A program made the position numbers and the translations under genes. This document shows positions 17,338 through 53,722 of a DNA stretch of 64,000 nucleotides, piece by piece (position 1 is the stretch's first letter; every line of letters begins with the position of its first letter). The stretch lies in NCBI GenBank assembly GCA_015709595.1, contig CP054178.1:2733205-2797204 (forward strand). The letters run 5' to 3'. The notes below the pieces were generated by a model, which did no database searches, was not told the origin of the DNA, and saw nothing but the letters and a program-made list of their open reading frames with translations. This DNA is from Phycisphaeraceae bacterium. GTDB lineage: Bacteria; Planctomycetota; Phycisphaerae; Phycisphaerales; SM1A02.

Positions 17338-19269
17338 ATGCCTCCTCATTCACCGCGTCTGACGTTTTCAGGTTGGCTTCCTCGGACAGGCCTGGTGCTC
17401 CTGGCTTTCGGGCTGGGCGCGCTGTCGGCGTGCAGCGGCGTGGAAAAGGCGCCGCCGCAACCGCGCTCCGCCAATACCAAGGCCACGATTCCGCTGGACG
17501 TGCCGGAGATCATGAAGGGCACGGTGGCTTCCCTGGGCGTGCTGGACGGGCATGAAGACATCGTGGTGCATGGCTGGGGGTTCGTGGTGGGGCTTCGGGG
17601 CACGGGGTCGCGCATCATGCCCGACCCGGTGCGGGCGCACATGCTGGCGGAGATGGCCCGGATGGGGGTGGGACAGGTGAGCATGGGCTCTTCGCTGTCG
17701 CCGGAGGCGCTGCTGGATTCGCCGGATACCGCGGTGGTGATTGTCGAGGGGATCATTCCAGGCGGGTCGCCGCAGGGAACCCGGTTCGACGTGCGCGTAT
17801 CGATTCCGCCGGGGACTGACGCCACCAGTCTGGAAGGCGGGCGTCTGTGGACGACCGATCTGCGGCCGATGCTGAATCCCGGTCCGCCCCCGGTGGGCAG
17901 CCGCCAGGCGAGGGCGATCGCCAAGGCGAGCGGCGACATCTTCACCAATCCCTTCGTCACGCCGGGTGGCGACGAAACCGCCGAGCTTGCCACGGGCACC
18001 AACGTGAACCGCATGTCGGGCCACATCCTGGGCGGCGGGGCGACCTCGCGCGACCTGCCGCTCAAACTGCGCATCGCGTCGCCGAGCCACACGACCGCCA
18101 GCACGCTGCAACAGGTGATCAACTCGTACTTTCCGCAGGAGCCGGGTCAGCGCAGCAAGACGGCGCGGGGCGAGGGGGACGCATCGATCGAGATCACCGT
18201 GCCGCCGTCGTACTACGGTCGCGTGAGCGAGTTCACCTATCTCCTGCAGCACACCACGCTGCTGACGGGGGCGACCCCGTACGCCGTGCAGTTCATCAAT
18301 CGCGAGCTCAAGCGTGCTCCCGGCGAGTTCGAGCACGCGACCTGGCGATGGCAGGCGCTGGGGGTGCAGGTGCTGCCGGGCATCCGCGAGTTCTACACCT
18401 ACCCGGAGGAGAAGCCCCGGTACGCCGCCCTGCGGGCGGGGGCGCGTCTCAACGACGCGCACGTCGAGCCGCACCTGCTGGATCTGGCGAAGACCGGTTC
18501 GCCCGTGGTTCGCAAGGACGCGATTCGTCTGCTGGGCGACATGTCGCCGCAGCCGGGCACGATCTTCGCGCTCCGCGAGCTGCTGGACGACGCCGATCCG
18601 GATGTGCGCATCGCCGCGTACGAGGCGCTGGCCAAGGCGAACACGCGGTTCATCCGCACCATTCAGGTCGATCGCAAGTTCATGGTGGATTACGTGGAGT
18701 CGGCGCGTCCGATGATCTACGTGACCCTGCTCGAGTTCCCGCGCATCGTGGTCTTCGGGCTGAACAACGAGATCAGCCGACCCATCACGCTGCAGACGTG
18801 GGGGAGCCGCTTCATCATCCGCGGCGGCGCGGACAGCGACCTGATTGATGTGCTGTATCGCGATGAAGAGGGGAACGCCTCGCCTCACCGCATCTCGCCT
18901 CGCCTGACGGAGTTCATTCCGTTCCTCGGCCATACCACGACAATCGAGCGTCCGATGCCGGGGCTGGGGCTGACCTACACCGAGACCATCGGCATCCTGC
19001 ACGCGATTCACGCCGCGCAGCATCTTCCGGGCGTTCAGTTCCGCACCGAGCAGGACCGGATTCTGCTGGCGATCCAGGAGCGCATGGCGGAGCGCCGCGA
19101 CTACCAGGAGCGGCCTGAGTTCATCGAGTTCGAAGAGTTGCCCCCGGCGCCTTCGCCGACGCCGGGGGATCAGGGCGGCTCCGCGATCGACGGCGGCGGG
19201 GTGCTGGCCCCCATCCGGCGGGATCAGGGGCCGGCAAGCGGAGGTTCCGATGCACCCCCTGGCCGGTGA
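17338..19269 (+). CDS. FlgI-like lipoprotein with HEAT-like repeats
   Basis: A 643-residue protein. The signal peptide ends in a lipobox (LGALSAC, Cys near residue 33). Residues about 55-330 resemble FlgI, the flagellar P-ring protein: [40 protein letters not shown] and [10 protein letters not shown] line up with FlgI's GLVxGLxGTG and SLxGGxL segments. Residues about 375-440 carry HEAT-like helices ([25 protein letters not shown]). The end is Pro/Gly-rich. No flagellar gene lies nearby and FlgI is normally a periplasmic protein without lipid anchor. It may be a structural paralogue rather than a flagellar part. It starts 84 bp after tRNA-Val. Confidence 0.7.
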
Positions 19270-23272: not shown

Positions 23273-24385
23273 ATGATCTGGCCCGTCCTGTCCCTCATCC
23301 TCGTGGGGTTCGCCATCGCCTGCCCGATGACGGCGGTGATGCGAGCGGTCGGGCTGCGGCTGCGGGCCCTTGATTCCCCGGGAGCCAAGGGGCATGTGAA
23401 GGTGCTGCGGCCCATTCCCAACACGGGCGGCGTGGCCATCTTCCTTGCCGTGGCGGCGCCCATGCTGGGAGGCATCGCGGCGGTGATCCTCGTTCCGGGC
23501 GAACAATGGGGGGCGTGGCTGCCGCCATTGGAGCAGCACCTGCCCCGTCTGGGCGAGACGCTGCCCACGGCCATCGCCTTGCTGGCGTGCCTGCTGGCGC
23601 TGCACCTGACCGGCGTGGTCGATGACCGTCGTTCGCTGGGGCCGTTCATCAAGCTGGGCGTGCAGGTCGCCGCGGCGGCGGTGATGACGATCTGGTTCGA
23701 GGTGCGCCTGCTGGAACTGCTCGGGCCGGCGCCCAGCGTGCTCATCACCATCGCGTGGATCGTGGTCATCACCAACGCCATCAACTTTCTCGACAACATG
23801 GACGGGCTGGCCGGGGGCGTGAGCGCCATCGCGGCGTCGTTCCTGCTGGCCGCCACGTTGCTCAACCAGCAGTGGTTCATCGCGGCGGTGCTGGCCCTGC
23901 TGGTAGGCGGGCTGATCGGCTTTCTGGTGTTCAACTTCCCGCCGGCCAAGATCTTCATGGGCGACGGCGGGTCGCTGGTGATCGGTTTTCTGCTGGCGGT
24001 GCTGACGGCGCGCACAACCTTCCTGCACGAGGGGCTGGGCGGCGGGTGGTACGGCGTGTTCATGCCCGTCGTGGTGCTGGCGATCCCGCTCTACGACTTC
24101 ACCAGCGTCACATTGATCCGGCTGAGGCAGGGAAAGAGTCCGTTCGTGGGCGACCAGCAGCACTTCTCCCATCGACTGGTGGAGCGCGGGTTGAGCAAGC
24201 GCGGCGCTGTCATCCTGATCTGGGCCTTGACCGCGGTGACGGGCGTGGGCGGCGTCTCGCTGGGTCGGTTGGAAGCGTGGCAGGCGGGGCTGGTCTTCGG
24301 CCAGACGGGACTGGTGATTCTGGCCATCGTCATCCTGGAGCACGCCAGCCGGCACGCCAAGGGGCGGAGCGGCGCCAGCGCGTAG
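23273..24385 (+). CDS. Undecaprenyl-phosphate glycosyl-1-phosphate transferase, WecA/TagO family
   Basis: A 370-residue polytopic membrane enzyme of the MraY/WecA superfamily. It moves a sugar-1-phosphate from a UDP-sugar to undecaprenyl phosphate to begin a surface polysaccharide. Motifs in order: the Asp pair in GVVDDRRSLGPF near residue 120, NAINFLDNMDGLAGG near residue 170, KIFMGDGGSLVIGF near residue 225 and the His loop in GDQQHFSHRL near residue 293. About ten membrane helices. The His loop points to WecA/TagO rather than MraY. The ATG giving MIWPVL starts the first helix; the short lead before it is unlike a protein. The next gene, an O-antigen-ligase-like protein, fits a polysaccharide role. 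Confidence 0.88.
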   Translation: MIWPVLSLILVGFAIACPMTAVMRAVGLRLRALDSPGAKGHVKVLRPIPNTGGVAIFLAVAAPMLGGIAAVILVPGEQWGAWLPPLEQHLPRLGETLPTAIALLACLLALHLTGVVDDRRSLGPFIKLGVQVAAAAVMTIWFEVRLLELLGPAPSVLITIAWIVVITNAINFLDNMDGLAGGVSAIAASFLLAATLLNQQWFIAAVLALLVGGLIGFLVFNFPPAKIFMGDGGSLVIGFLLAVLTARTTFLHEGLGGGWYGVFMPVVVLAIPLYDFTSVTLIRLRQGKSPFVGDQQHFSHRLVERGLSKRGAVILIWALTAVTGVGGVSLGRLEAWQAGLVFGQTGLVILAIVILEHASRHAKGRSGASA

Positions 24386-24462: not shown

Positions 24463-26712
24463 ATGGCTCGACCGGCCGATTCATCGCGCGAGACGTTCAA
24501 CCTTGTGACGGCGACCTTCATCGTCGCGATGATTGTCATGCGGTGCCTTGTGGTGCTGTCACCGCACTTGGCGTTCGGCACTGACCCGCTTCTGGATCCG
24601 ACCGCTGGTCCCGACATCACGCCGCTTGGCATGATGCTGTGGGACGCGGCGGTGCTGCTGGCATGCGCGGTCGCACTGCTGCACGAGCGAAGGGTGGGCC
24701 GAAGCATCGACTGGCGGTTGATGGGGTTGGCGCTGGCGCCCCTGCCGGTGCTGGCGTGGCACGCGTCACAGTCCTTCGATGACCTGTGGCGAGGCGCCGG
24801 GTGGTTCAGCGCGGTCATCAGCGCGGCCACGCTGGCGCATCTGGCGCGGGATCGGGGGGTTCGCGCCTCCGCCGCTGCGGTGCTGGTCGCCGTCATCGCG
24901 CCGCTGGTCATCCGAGGTGCGTCGCAGGTGTTCATCGAACACGCGGAGACGTTGCGCTACTACCGCGAGCACCGGCTGGATGTGCTGGCTGCCCAGGGCA
25001 TCGAGCCGGGGTCGAACGCGGCGGCCATCTTTGAGCGCCGGCTCATGCAGCCGGAGGCCACGGGCTGGTTTCCGCTGGCCAACGTGTTCGGATCGTTCAT
25101 GGTGGCGGGCGTGGTGGTGATGCTGGGGCTGCTGGTCGCTGCGGTGCGGGCCCGCACGCCCAGCGGCTGGTGGGGCGTGCTGGCGCTGGGATTGGCGGGG
25201 GCGATCGTCGGGCTGATCCTGTGCGGATCGAAAGGCGCGTACGCCGCCGCGGGGCTGGGCGTGGGCGTGCTGGGGATGCTGTGGTTGAATGCTCGCATCA
25301 ACGTCCGTCGAGCCGGCATGACTGGCGGCGGGCTGGTCATGGCGGCGGTGATCGCAGCGATGCTGGGCGTCATCGTGCGCGGCGCGGTGCTTCCAGAGGG
25401 CTTCGCGGGAGAGAAGAGCGTGCTCTTCCGCTGGCATTACGCGGTGGCCAGCGCGCGGATCGTCGCCGACCACCTGCTGACGGGCGCGGGGCCGGACGGC
25501 TACCAGCCCGCCTACGTGCTGCACCGATTGCCCAACGCGCCGGAGGAAGTGGCCAGCGCGCACTCGGTGTTTCTCGACTGGCTGGCGTCGCTGGGCGTGT
25601 GGGGGCTGGCGTGGATCGTGCTGGCGATGCTGCTGGTGTGGCGCGCGGGCGTGCGTTCGGTGACGCCCGATGAGCCAGCGGATCAATCCGCGTCCAGCGT
25701 CCGGGGAGCGCTCAGTCTCGCCATGCTCACGTTGGCGATGGCGGCCGCGCTCATCGTGCAGGAGATGCGGGTGCTGGATGGCGCCTCGCTTGTGCCGCGG
25801 ATCGTCGGGTTTGCGGCACTGATCGCTCTGGCGCTGGTCCTGCGTCGCGTGCTGCTGGCCTTGCCGGGTCAAGCGATTGCGATGTCGCTCGCCGCCGGGG
25901 CCGCCGCGCTGCTGGCGCACGGGCAGATTGAACTGACGTTCACGCAACCCGGGGCGGCGGGGTGGGCGCTGGCGCTGCTGGGTGTGGCGGGTGCGGGCGG
26001 TGGCGGCAATGCCAGAGATGGCCGACCTGGGGGCGGTGACGATGCGGCGCGCGCGACACGCGGCCCGAGCAGGATCGCCTGGCTCGCGCCGGGTGTGGTA
26101 GCGGCGTACACGGTGCTGCTGATTACCGGCGGCGCGGTTCCAGCGTGGCGGGCGAAGTCCGTGGCGGATGAAGCGGCGCGAGGTCTCGCGTCGCTGGGCT
26201 CCGCGGCGCGCACTGACCCGGCGCGGCATCGTGAGACACGGAAGCGTGCGTCGGACCTGTTGCTTGAAGCCCACGAGCGCCTGCCGGGCGACTGGCGGCT
26301 GCTGCTGGCGGCGGCGGAGCAGCGGATGATCGCGGGTCAGCTGACCCAGCCCGCAAACGCGGAGGACATGATGCAAGCCCTGTCGCTGGCGGAGCGCGCG
26401 ATGGCGATTCGTCGCATCCCGCGCACGGTCGCCGCCGCGGCGGGAATGGCGGAGTCAATTGCTCGCGTCACCGGCCACGCGGCGGACTGGGACCATGCCA
26501 TCGCCCTGCGGCGCGAGGCGGCGGGTCTGGACCCGCACGGCTTGACGCCCCGTCTGGCGCTCGCCGATGTGCTGTGGGAGTCGGGCCGGCATGACGAAGC
26601 CCGCGAGCAGTACCGCCGCGTCCTGGCGATCGACGAGGCGTGGCGCCTCGATGAACTCAAGCGACTTTCGGAGAGTGATCGCACGCGCGTGCACGAGCGA
26701 ACGATGAAGTGA
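24463..26712 (+). CDS. O-antigen-ligase-like polytopic membrane protein with C-terminal TPR region
   Basis: A 749-residue protein. Residues about 15-550 contain about twelve hydrophobic helices. A periplasmic-type loop near residues 315-375 (FRWHYAVASARIVADH, LLTGAGPDGYQPAYV, SAHSVFLDWLASLGVWG) matches the Wzy_C/O-antigen ligase signature, where the conserved Arg and His act. The C-terminal 180 residues are soluble helices with TPR-like spacing (LSLAERAMAIRR, DHAIALRREAAGL, DEAREQYRRVLAIDE). Such proteins ligate or polymerise surface glycans. The transferase gene upstream supports this. No Shine-Dalgarno precedes the ATG. Confidence 0.8.
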   Translation: MARPADSSRETFNLVTATFIVAMIVMRCLVVLSPHLAFGTDPLLDPTAGPDITPLGMMLWDAAVLLACAVALLHERRVGRSIDWRLMGLALAPLPVLAWHASQSFDDLWRGAGWFSAVISAATLAHLARDRGVRASAAAVLVAVIAPLVIRGASQVFIEHAETLRYYREHRLDVLAAQGIEPGSNAAAIFERRLMQPEATGWFPLANVFGSFMVAGVVVMLGLLVAAVRARTPSGWWGVLALGLAGAIVGLILCGSKGAYAAAGLGVGVLGMLWLNARINVRRAGMTGGGLVMAAVIAAMLGVIVRGAVLPEGFAGEKSVLFRWHYAVASARIVADHLLTGAGPDGYQPAYVLHRLPNAPEEVASAHSVFLDWLASLGVWGLAWIVLAMLLVWRAGVRSVTPDEPADQSASSVRGALSLAMLTLAMAAALIVQEMRVLDGASLVPRIVGFAALIALALVLRRVLLALPGQAIAMSLAAGAAALLAHGQIELTFTQPGAAGWALALLGVAGAGGGGNARDGRPGGGDDAARATRGPSRIAWLAPGVVAAYTVLLITGGAVPAWRAKSVADEAARGLASLGSAARTDPARHRETRKRASDLLLEAHERLPGDWRLLLAAAEQRMIAGQLTQPANAEDMMQALSLAERAMAIRRIPRTVAAAAGMAESIARVTGHAADWDHAIALRREAAGLDPHGLTPRLALADVLWESGRHDEAREQYRRVLAIDEAWRLDELKRLSESDRTRVHERTMK

Positions 26713-51474: not shown

Positions 51475-51548
51475 GGGCCGGTAGCTCAGCGGTCCAGAGC
51501 AGCCGACTCATAATCGGTCAGACCCCGGTTCGAATCCGGGCCGGCCCA
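51475..51548 (+). tRNA. tRNA-Ile2 (CAT anticodon, lysidine type)
   Basis: A 74-nt cloverleaf: acceptor GGGCCGG/CCGGCCC plus A, D arm TAGCTCAGCGG, anticodon loop CTCATAA in stem GCCGA/TCGGT, T arm CGGTTCGAATCCG. The acceptor has C4-G69 and C5-G68, and the anticodon stem begins with a G27-U43 wobble. These are the marks by which TilS tells tRNA-Ile2 from elongator tRNA-Met. So it probably reads AUA after lysidine modification. CCA is not encoded. Confidence 0.8.
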
Positions 51549-52476: not shown

Positions 52477-52895
52477 GAGGGTGAGACCGCCATTCACCGG
52501 CCAGATACGCTCCAAGTCTTCTATTTTCAGGCACTTGGATAGTTGGCGATGAATCGGATATGGACGAAAGGCCAAGGTATAGTTCGACTCATGGGTTGGG
52601 CCTCTGGGCAAGTGATTATCGGACAATATCGACGCGAAACCTAGGGCCTCATGTGGCGGAGCATCGTTGGATGGGTGGTCGAACCTGTGGGAATCGGTAA
52701 ATACCCGATTCGCAGAAAAAACACGAAGAATCCACTTGTACGACAGGCGGATGTCGGATACTCTGTTGGCACTGAGGTCGCTCGGTGCGCCCAAGGCGCA
52801 TCGTTCGGTCTTGGGCCACACGCACCTTGGGGGGCAACTCCGGGGCGTGGGTGGTGGGAAGAAGAACAGACCTGAAAGGGAGAACGGAGAAGCAC
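52477..52895. other. 419-bp regulatory region upstream of the PEP-CTERM gene
   Basis: It is visibly richer in A/T than its surroundings and holds no gene. It contains the sigma-54-like promoter at 52766. In the predicted 5' leader a CCCAAG...CTTGGG inverted repeat (near 52789-52814) could fold. No clear upstream activator palindrome was found. Confidence 0.55.
52766..52782 (+). promoter_or_regulatory. Sigma-54-type promoter
   Basis: TTGGCACTGAGGTCGCT matches the -24/-12 consensus TTGGCACG-N4-TTGCW with the invariant GG and GC exactly 10 nt apart. Two mismatches. The start point would give a leader of about 100 nt to the PEP-CTERM gene. In several EPS-producing bacteria PEP-CTERM genes are under PrsK/PrsR-sigma-54 control. 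Confidence 0.6.
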
Positions 52896-53585
52896 ATGAT
52901 CAAGAGATGGGCAACGAAACTTGCTGCGGGCGCGCTGGTAGCGACCGCGGCGCTGGGCGCTGGTTCGGCGCAGGCCGCGACCACGCTGCAGTTCGACGTG
53001 AACAACGCCAGGGGTGCGGCGACGCCCGGTGGGTTCTCAACGACCTACACGGGCAACCTGAAGCTGTCCCTGGACGGCAACACCATCCTCCTTGGGTTGT
53101 TCATCGACGGCAACTACAACCCGCTGGGTGCTGGCTGGGCGATCTCCGCGATCGACGTCAGCATCGACTTCCTCGGCGGCAACATCGTCGGCGGCAGCTA
53201 CAAGCTGTCCGTGAGCAATGGTCTCGACACTGACACGTTCGAGGCCGTGCTGATCGACGGCAACGGCGCTGCCGGCAACATCGGCCTCGTCGGTTCGAAC
53301 TACACCATCTTTGGTGGCGTTCAACTTGGCACGTTCACCTCGGTGACGGTGCCGGGTGAGTTCGGCGGCGTCAACGTGGCAGACTTCATCGCTGCTCAGC
53401 CGCTGCGTGGTCGGTTCGACGAGTTCTTCTTCGCCCCCAACTCGGCTGGCGTGGACAATGACACGGACATCGACCTGTTCGTGATCATCCCCGCTCCGCC
53501 GGCGGTTCTCTGGGGCCTCGCGGGTCTGGCTGGGCTGGCCATCGGCCGCAAGCGCCTGCGTTCGCTCGGGCTCTCGAAGCGCTGA
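52896..53585 (+). CDS. PEP-CTERM-type exported protein
   Basis: A 229-residue secreted protein. The signal peptide is residues 1-27 (LAAGALVATAALGAGSAQA). The mature part is a Gly/Asn/Asp-rich beta protein with no Cys (STTYTGNLKLSLDGNTIL, GGNIVGGSYKLS). The C-terminus is a sorting signal: IIPAPPAVLWGLAGLAGLAI then GRKRLR, the PEP-type motif, membrane helix and basic tail cut by an exosortase. It should end up on the cell surface or in the matrix. GGAGA lies about 7 nt before the ATG. A strong terminator follows. No exosortase gene is in the window. Confidence 0.88.
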   Translation: MIKRWATKLAAGALVATAALGAGSAQAATTLQFDVNNARGAATPGGFSTTYTGNLKLSLDGNTILLGLFIDGNYNPLGAGWAISAIDVSIDFLGGNIVGGSYKLSVSNGLDTDTFEAVLIDGNGAAGNIGLVGSNYTIFGGVQLGTFTSVTVPGEFGGVNVADFIAAQPLRGRFDEFFFAPNSAGVDNDTDIDLFVIIPAPPAVLWGLAGLAGLAIGRKRLRSLGLSKR

Positions 53586-53640
53586 ACGCGCCACGCAACC
53601 TATCGACCACGATCGTCGATCCGTTCCTCTCAACACGTTC

Positions 53641-53680
53641 AGGGCCGACTGCTCAGCAGTCGGCCCTGTTCATTTGGTTT
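53641..53680 (+). terminator. Intrinsic terminator after the PEP-CTERM gene
   Basis: A 13-bp perfect stem (AGGGCCGACTGCT / AGCAGTCGGCCCT) with a single-base loop is followed by the T-rich GTTCATTTGGTTTT. It may also stop transcription of the convergent dihydrolipoyl dehydrogenase gene. Confidence 0.8.
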
Positions 53681-53722
53681 TCGACTCGGACCACCGATGA
53701 CGCGGGTCAGGCATCCGCTTTT

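Follow-up and report, generated by a model that had tools for sequence, protein, structure and literature searches.

With the PEP-CTERM/exosortase system (EpsH, TIGR02595/TIGR02602; Haft et al., 2006), the gene described here shares a product with a signal peptide and a C-terminal proline motif, helix, and arginine cluster, as well as an arrangement in which the client forms a single-gene unit with a long upstream region and the exosortase is located in an exopolysaccharide (EPS) cluster. In the part of that study available to us, a sigma-54 site and an activator motif, the latter ending in TTTACA and located approximately 63 nucleotides before the sigma-54 site, were common only to proteobacterial PEP-CTERM genes (PMC1569441). 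A VPLP-like motif relates the tail of our protein to the VPLPA-CTERM/XrtD pair (TIGR03370, TIGR04152), and XDD/XDP surface proteins (NF045504, NF041927) are likewise exported exosortase clients. Finally, the thioester-domain adhesins (TED, PF08341), such as Cpa, SfbI, and BaTIE, rely on an LPXTG sortase signal rather than on an exosortase-type tag, and their covalent adhesion chemistry is described, in the available part of the source, from Gram-positive bacteria (PMC6194298).

Here, we analyzed a window of 64 kb (the whole stretch of DNA under study, positions 2733205 to 2797204 of a single-contig genome of 3.84 Mb), for which a preliminary description had proposed a PEP-CTERM gene controlled by a PrsK/PrsR-sigma-54 switch. 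We consider it likely that this gene encodes an exported, singly transcribed, and unlinked client of a Phycisphaerales pair formed by an exosortase, here called type 2, and a VPLP-type tag. In the open-licence PMC literature on exosortases, Planctomycetes, and thioester domains, we found no description of such a pairing.

The window gene and its product

The gene (window positions 52896 to 53585, plus strand) is preceded by a ribosome-binding site, GGAG (52886 to 52889), six bases 5' of its ATG (52896), and encodes a surface protein of 229 amino acids, a predicted type 2 exosortase client. Judged by eye, its N terminus (MIKRWATKLAAGALVATAALGAGSAQA) is Sec-signal-like, with a predicted signal peptide of approximately 27 residues (52896 to 52976), and its C terminus (IIPAPPAVLWGLAGLAGLAIGRKRLR) consists of a proline motif, a hydrophobic stretch, and a basic end. 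This C terminus contains a VPLP-type sorting tag (class B; 53484 to 53582), directly 5' of which an aspartate-rich motif is encoded (D187, D189, D191, D193, and F195; 53454 to 53480), as recognized by alignment with homologues. Downstream of the gene, a terminator-like intrinsic hairpin of 13 pairs with a loop of 3 nucleotides was found (53640 to 53668, plus strand); the stretch from 53630 to 53690 folds with a z score of −5.1. The earlier view of a stand-alone unit, with an exported protein and a 13-bp terminator, was therefore confirmed, as was its placement in an A/T-richer island, with a G+C content of 58 to 59% upstream of the gene and of 65 to 70% on either side. The predicted structure of the protein (pLDDT, 38.7) was too poor for use.

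An XRE-type regulator gene (Pfam HTH) ends 419 bp upstream of the window gene and is itself immediately preceded by a tRNA-Met gene (51475 to 51548), while the opposite-strand neighbor is, by eye, dihydrolipoamide dehydrogenase-like. The other RNA genes of the window encode tRNA-Lys (7234), tRNA-Val (17180), tmRNA (30454), and tRNA-Leu (61782), and in the protein encoded from 17395 to 19269, HEAT repeats come after a flagellar P-ring (FlgI) domain. Upstream of the window gene, an imperfect inverted repeat (52688 to 52714), a possible operator, contains the perfect core GAATCGG-N7-CCGATTC (52691 to 52711); it is located 54 bp upstream of the −24/−12-like element discussed below and, among 110 loci, occurs only in the window gene's own locus. 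The 5' untranslated region (52783 to 52895) folds better than shuffled versions (z score, −2.9), and within it two copies of CTTGGG are alternative potential partners of CCCAAG. We also considered, and rejected, the presence of a known RNA element in this 5' region, Rfam returning only two matches, both far under the gathering scores.

Two classes of C-terminal tails in one genome

Class A comprises 26 proteins of the genome with [IV]P-x-P-[GS]...RRRR tails, nearly all of them PAPGALALLG-like. For this set, a TIGR02595 search yielded 26 rows above the cutoff; three rows (two of them above the cutoff) were dropped, and two real ones below the cutoff were kept. The dropped rows were L054, which falls within the frame of a membrane protein, and two frames of only 29 and 34 codons (L064 and L067, respectively). 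The tail encoded by L064 (genome positions 1493556 to 1493618) is nearly identical to that of L047, approximately 4 kb away, and the 29-codon frame may be a broken copy.

Class B tails follow the pattern [IV]P[LVA]P[PA]...GLAGL-G...RRR and occur in at least six proteins of the genome (the window protein, L038, L141, L142, L143, and a protein encoded at 653638), as well as in many proteins of relatives. Scored with a class B model that was built without five rows from the genome itself, the window tail reached 46.3 bits, versus 2.2 bits with the class A model, and the L038 tail reached 55.5 bits, versus −1.4. For the remaining four, the class B model gave 28.8 to 49.8 bits and the class A model no more than 17.6, the tail at 653638 to 653730 reaching 34.2 and 3.5 bits, respectively. 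Among the class A frames, 25 of 26 scored higher as class A; the exception, L061, does not end in a tail. Its open frame (at approximately 557816 in the genome) continues for some 56 residues past a PEP-CTERM-type tail.

The window tail had no match in NCBIfam at an E value of ≤1, with TIGR02595 and the VPLPA-CTERM model TIGR03370 among the models covered, and is absent from the genome's TIGR02595 list (E value, ≤10). Thus, of the suggestion that the gene encodes a PEP-CTERM protein with an exosortase signal, the resemblance to an exosortase client stands, whereas the assignment to PEP-CTERM proper (TIGR02595) does not. The ten class B proteins that were scanned with the VPLPA-CTERM model scored at most 21.5, versus a tail cutoff of 25.35. 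Finally, L143 is a member of NCBIfam XDD4 (176.9 bits; cutoff, 40), whereas the window protein matches none of the XDD/XDP models.

Two exosortases and their surroundings

The search for an exosortase that followed from the preliminary description turned up two, each beside its own sugar-transferase and EPS genes. The type 1 exosortase (613 amino acids) has a fused EpsI-like part and is nearest to XrtD/XrtW, below the cutoffs of both. The type 2 exosortase (273 amino acids; genome positions 3474922 to 3475740, in locus L093) passes only the generic models PF09721 (154.5; cutoff, 25.7) and TIGR02602 (108.6; cutoff, 105.55) and remains below the cutoff of every named subfamily listed. For both enzymes, the best NCBIfam match is the VPLPA-specific XrtD, below its cutoff; unlike XrtD, type 2 lacks the fused EpsI part, scoring 114.6 against a cutoff of 400, with a match to the first half only. 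In ten type 2 exosortases, C172, R217, and H237 are invariant. The named relatives of the enzyme are mostly encoded in Phycisphaerales or Phycisphaerae metagenome-assembled genomes, with a few others, e.g., in Hydrogenedentes, so the genome under study is probably that of a Phycisphaerales planctomycete.

The window gene is located approximately 0.69 Mb from the type 2 gene, and the L038 gene is located 12.7 kb from it, in the same EPS cluster. The WecA-type gene (23273 to 24385) and the O-antigen-ligase-type gene (24463 to 26712) of the window, previously suggested as possible glycan makers, are real, but both exosortases are located elsewhere, with EPS genes of their own.

Class B tails track the type 2 exosortase

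In family f1, a strong type 1 match (E value, ≤1e-66) was present in 94 of 101 genomes (98 of 101 when any match at an E value of ≤0.001 is counted, weak cross-hits included), so this near-universal enzyme offers no explanation for the patchy occurrence of class B tails. The type 2 exosortase (E value, <1e-45), found in 27 of the 101 genomes, does follow that pattern: a class B tail (E value, ≤1e-5) was present in 16 of 27 type 2 genomes versus 4 of 74 others, in a test that uses the best E value per genome, which class A tails can inflate (the tails of 30 loci were also classed by eye), and that ignores shared ancestry. When the four genomes from which the tail model was built were excluded, the counts were 12 of 23 versus 4 of 74, and a genus-level test with the same exclusion (18 and 26 genera) gave a P value of 1.4e-4. 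Families f2 to f6 added 147 genomes outside the f1 set. In f2, which was not used for the models, class B tails (E value, ≤1e-8) were found in 21 of 31 type 2 genomes versus 3 of 36 others (rank test, P = 2.5e-9; shared ancestry again ignored). In f6 (31 and 20 genomes), class B tails showed no association with type 2 (P = 0.13), and f3 to f5 were too small for this test. The correspondence has exceptions in both directions: high-scoring tails without a type 2 match were seen in three genomes of f2 and in four of f1 (in one of the latter, G070, the tail is class A-like), and 11 of the 27 type 2 genomes of f1 had no tail at an E value of ≤1e-5.

The two are also linked on the chromosome, class B genes often being located approximately 10 kb from a type 2 exosortase gene. 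An open reading frame with a class B tail was present within 10 kb of 25 of 62 named type 2 genes (21 of 37 full-length loci), versus 2 of 62 for class A, and no class B tail was found around 18 other exosortases (8 full-length loci). For all 14 minus-strand type 2 genes of f2, we also inspected the downstream sequence over at most 20 kb: 10 of these stretches contain class B and 1 contains class A. Of the four stretches without class B, three are cut by a contig end and measure 2.9, 10.3, and 13.6 kb. These two counts (25 of 62 and 10 of 14) are less biased than an additional linkage count over 26 genomes, which is based on hand-picked rows in which a single contig carries both genes.

Homologues of the window protein

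Three full-length homologues of the window protein were identified (33 to 36% identity; E values of 1e-29, 5e-28, and 6.5e-19), two of them in genome G139 and one in Phycisphaerales bacterium OFTM8 (loci L263 and L233, respectively). All three genes are located in type 2 clusters, 9 to 12 kb from the exosortase gene, a uniformity that is partly due to ascertainment, since the loci searched had been fetched mainly for an exosortase or a tail. In the window protein and the three homologues, the sequence D-x-D-x-D-x-D-x-F before the tag is invariant. Going by position and size, the homologues are preceded by genes for EpsI, a chain-length-like protein, a sugar transferase, and a large TPR protein, in that order; the genome under study has the same order from the type 2 gene to the TPR gene, followed by three sugar-nucleotide-like genes and then L038. 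The homologues tie the family of the window protein directly to the type 2 cluster, with the window gene as an unlinked member. Searched against the 101 genomes of f1, the window protein gave only tail matches and one weak full-length relative (L036; 30% identity; E value, 4e-5), and a scan of a separate set of genome contigs gave no homologue.

Predicted thioester-like clients of type 2 clusters

In the commonest class B tail linked to a type 2 cluster, VPLP is preceded by a QD motif (by eye, in 17 of 25 loci), and L038 (L093:6205-6957, approximately 3462204 to 3462956 in the genome) is predicted, on the basis of its motifs and model, to be a thioester-domain adhesin with an exosortase-type tag. 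In 25 aligned rows of L038 relatives, which were picked by hand (three of them for their QD tails, with one relative that was left out, L166, lacking the first glutamine, Gln149), residues Cys85, Gln149, Gln219, and Asp220 are invariant. A pattern of [YFL]C followed by Q-x-x-hydrophobic-W was present in 44 of 47 distinct QD-tail proteins, two of the three misses being cut by locus ends, and these cysteine and glutamine/tryptophan patterns fit the thioester-domain motifs as described in the available part of the literature source (PMC6194298). From its spacing and position, we infer that Gln219 would be the bond partner.

The predicted fold of L038 (pLDDT, 85) is consistent with such an assignment. 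Upon realignment of the model to solved structures, a procedure that ranks only what Foldseek offers, 11 entries for thioester proteins scored Z values of 12.0 to 8.2, the next entry scoring 3.1; Foldseek alone gave no match at an E value of <0.1, with a thioester protein ranked third (E value, 0.22). The Pfam TED model matched 16 of the 25 rows at an E value of ≤0.1 (best, 3e-4), with the three scores that were seen below the cutoff, and did not match L038 itself at that E value. Many cluster-linked clients look like thioester proteins. The window protein contains no cysteine and is not a thioester protein.

The −24/−12-like element and sigma-54

The near-consensus −24/−12 element reported earlier is real: TTGGCAC-TGAGG-TCGCT (52766 to 52782, plus strand) differs from TGGCAC-N5-TTGCW by one mismatch (TCG for TTG) and ends 113 nucleotides before the start codon; no other site in the 64-kb window comes within one mismatch. 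By shuffling, a site as good as this one has a probability of approximately 0.003 in the gene's 250-bp upstream stretch, and among 81 genes of the window and of both exosortase regions that were scored alike, the window gene was the only one with a site of ≥12 bits. The motif per se is not overrepresented in the window, with 15 sites of at most two mismatches versus 26.6 expected, or in the genome, with 49 sites of at most one mismatch versus 146 for a reversed control pattern. At genome positions 467133 to 467241 (L012:1501-1609), a tandem array holds four copies of TGGCACGNGGATCGCA at 31-bp steps, which inflates counts of −24/−12-like sites.

As to the regulators that the proposed switch involves, rpoN is present, and matches to sigma-54 activators (enhancer-binding proteins) include five strong ones and five weak ones (E values of 5e-7 to 7e-4). 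None of them exceeds the cutoff for PrsR (TIGR02915; best match, 389.2 bits; cutoff, 502.6). In locus L088 (1204 to 3315), a gene for an AtoC/NtrC-like response regulator lies directly downstream of a class A PEP-CTERM gene, on the same strand.

Of the 49 genomic sites with at most one mismatch, 12 are positioned as promoters (13 with L061, a gene missed by the gene caller), versus approximately 5 to 6 expected by chance from the site density and an assumed 3300 genes. Two HSP20 genes are preceded by such sites, one perfect and one with one mismatch (L005:1501-1516 and L032:1501-1516), which suggests that small heat shock proteins are sigma-54 driven. Further sites were found in the interval that separates an enhancer-binding protein gene from an S30AE/hibernation-factor gene (L089:1838-2481), before a gene that is flgB-like by eye and adjoins an activator gene (L091:2038-2066), and before an flgE/F/G-type operon (L007:1501-1516). 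Given these positions, sigma-54 looks active in stress and motility.

Enrichment of the element before tagged genes, on which the preliminary description had made its reading depend, was not seen at the strict threshold. We scored 28 tagged genes (26 of class A, L038, and the window gene), with strict and loose thresholds at the 99th and 95th percentiles of shuffles; start codons were picked by script, and the upstream stretches may therefore be off for some genes. A strict site was present in 2 of the 28 (the window gene and L061), i.e., in 1 of the 27 others versus 1 of 79 other local genes, and the score distributions of these two groups did not differ (P = 0.17). At the loose threshold, there was a weak hint of an excess (4 of 27 versus 2 of 79; P = 0.036), or, with the window gene included, 5 of 28 versus 1.4 expected. 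Among 22 class B genes of this and other genomes (L142, without a start codon, was left out), the window gene was the only one with a strong site. A second class B count, in which some loci contain genes already present in the first, covered 28 loci, 24 of which were scored; a single site, at L169, exceeded the 99th percentile, and it lacks the GG of the −24 box. Neither the three homologues nor the class B gene at 653638 to 653730 are preceded by a sigma-54 site. We rejected a genome-wide sigma-54 PEP-CTERM regulon on the basis of the strict count (1 of 27), the class B count (1 of 22), and the similar distributions, although the loose excess speaks against this rejection. A sigma-54 regulon shared by the tagged genes is not supported, and the element of the window gene may be a gene-specific promoter or a chance occurrence.

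Discussion

In the scheme that we favor, the window protein would be exported by Sec through its N-terminal signal and would be kept in the inner membrane by its tail. The type 2 exosortase, with its conserved cysteine, arginine, and histidine, would then recognize and cleave the VPLP-type tag, a pairing supported by comparative genomics, with a presumed chemistry, and would pass the protein to the surface, probably with the polysaccharide of the enzyme's own EPS cluster. The nearly universal type 1 exosortase would serve the 26 PAPGALALLG-type proteins. On a broader level, Phycisphaerales might possess a separate sorting channel, in which a so far unnamed subfamily of exosortases, paired with a VPLP-type tag of its own, mostly displays single-domain thioester adhesins, with the candidate bond-forming glutamine in the QD motif directly before the tag, plus a client family with an aspartate-rich motif before the tag that includes the window protein; we regard this wider proposal as evenly poised.

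The tail could also be a divergent PEP-CTERM signal, in which case the window protein would be a client of the type 1 (XrtD/XrtW-like, EpsI-fused) exosortase. That enzyme has a strong match in 94 of the 101 family genomes, and XrtD, specific for VPLPA, is the best NCBIfam match of both exosortases, albeit below the cutoff; however, class B tails track type 2, and the window tail scores just 2.2 bits in the class A model, which makes assignment to type 1 unlikely.

Two further explanations concern the control of the gene rather than its sorting. Membership in a PrsK/PrsR-sigma-54 PEP-CTERM regulon linked to EPS would fit the presence of rpoN and an element one mismatch off the consensus with a score reached by 1 of 81 local genes; moreover, the distance of 113 nucleotides to the start codon is within the range given in the available part of Haft et al. 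(PMC1569441), the inverted repeat 54 bp upstream of the element could bind an activator, and loose sites were in excess before tagged genes. Against this, no PrsR exceeds the cutoff, strict sites before other tagged genes (1 of 27) are at the local background (1 of 79), with L061, the one gene counted, having a frame that overruns its tag by approximately 56 residues, and the site is absent before the three homologues and 21 of 22 class B genes. Furthermore, in the part of PMC1569441 available to us, only Proteobacteria have the Prs site, and no TTTACA motif was seen by eye between 52640 and 52766 upstream of the window gene, a comparison made with the end of the motif as given there. The alternative is a gene-specific sigma-54 promoter, with an enhancer-binding protein driving the window gene and perhaps a few others, as the sites before the two HSP20 genes, the hibernation-factor gene, flgB, and the flgE/F/G-type operon, and the surplus of promoter-positioned sites, would allow; its −12 box, however, reads TCGCT rather than TTGC, it is not conserved in the homologues, and we found no shared activator site. 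Since the site is strong on its own and shows no clear enrichment at tagged genes or homologues, we consider a gene-specific promoter a tentative possibility and the Prs regulon highly improbable.

A client of the type 2 exosortase thus remains our preferred reading of the window protein. When a genome encodes many exosortase clients, it is tempting to regard them as one PEP-CTERM pool; here, two exosortases appear with separate tags, and the specificity of tag recognition can therefore be tested inside one organism. As for regulation, our results correct an overextension of the original claim: evidence is needed before the Prs-sigma-54 control of Proteobacteria is assumed for planctomycetes. 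If the proposed sorting channel is true, it would mean that diderm bacteria display covalent-capture adhesins via an exosortase.
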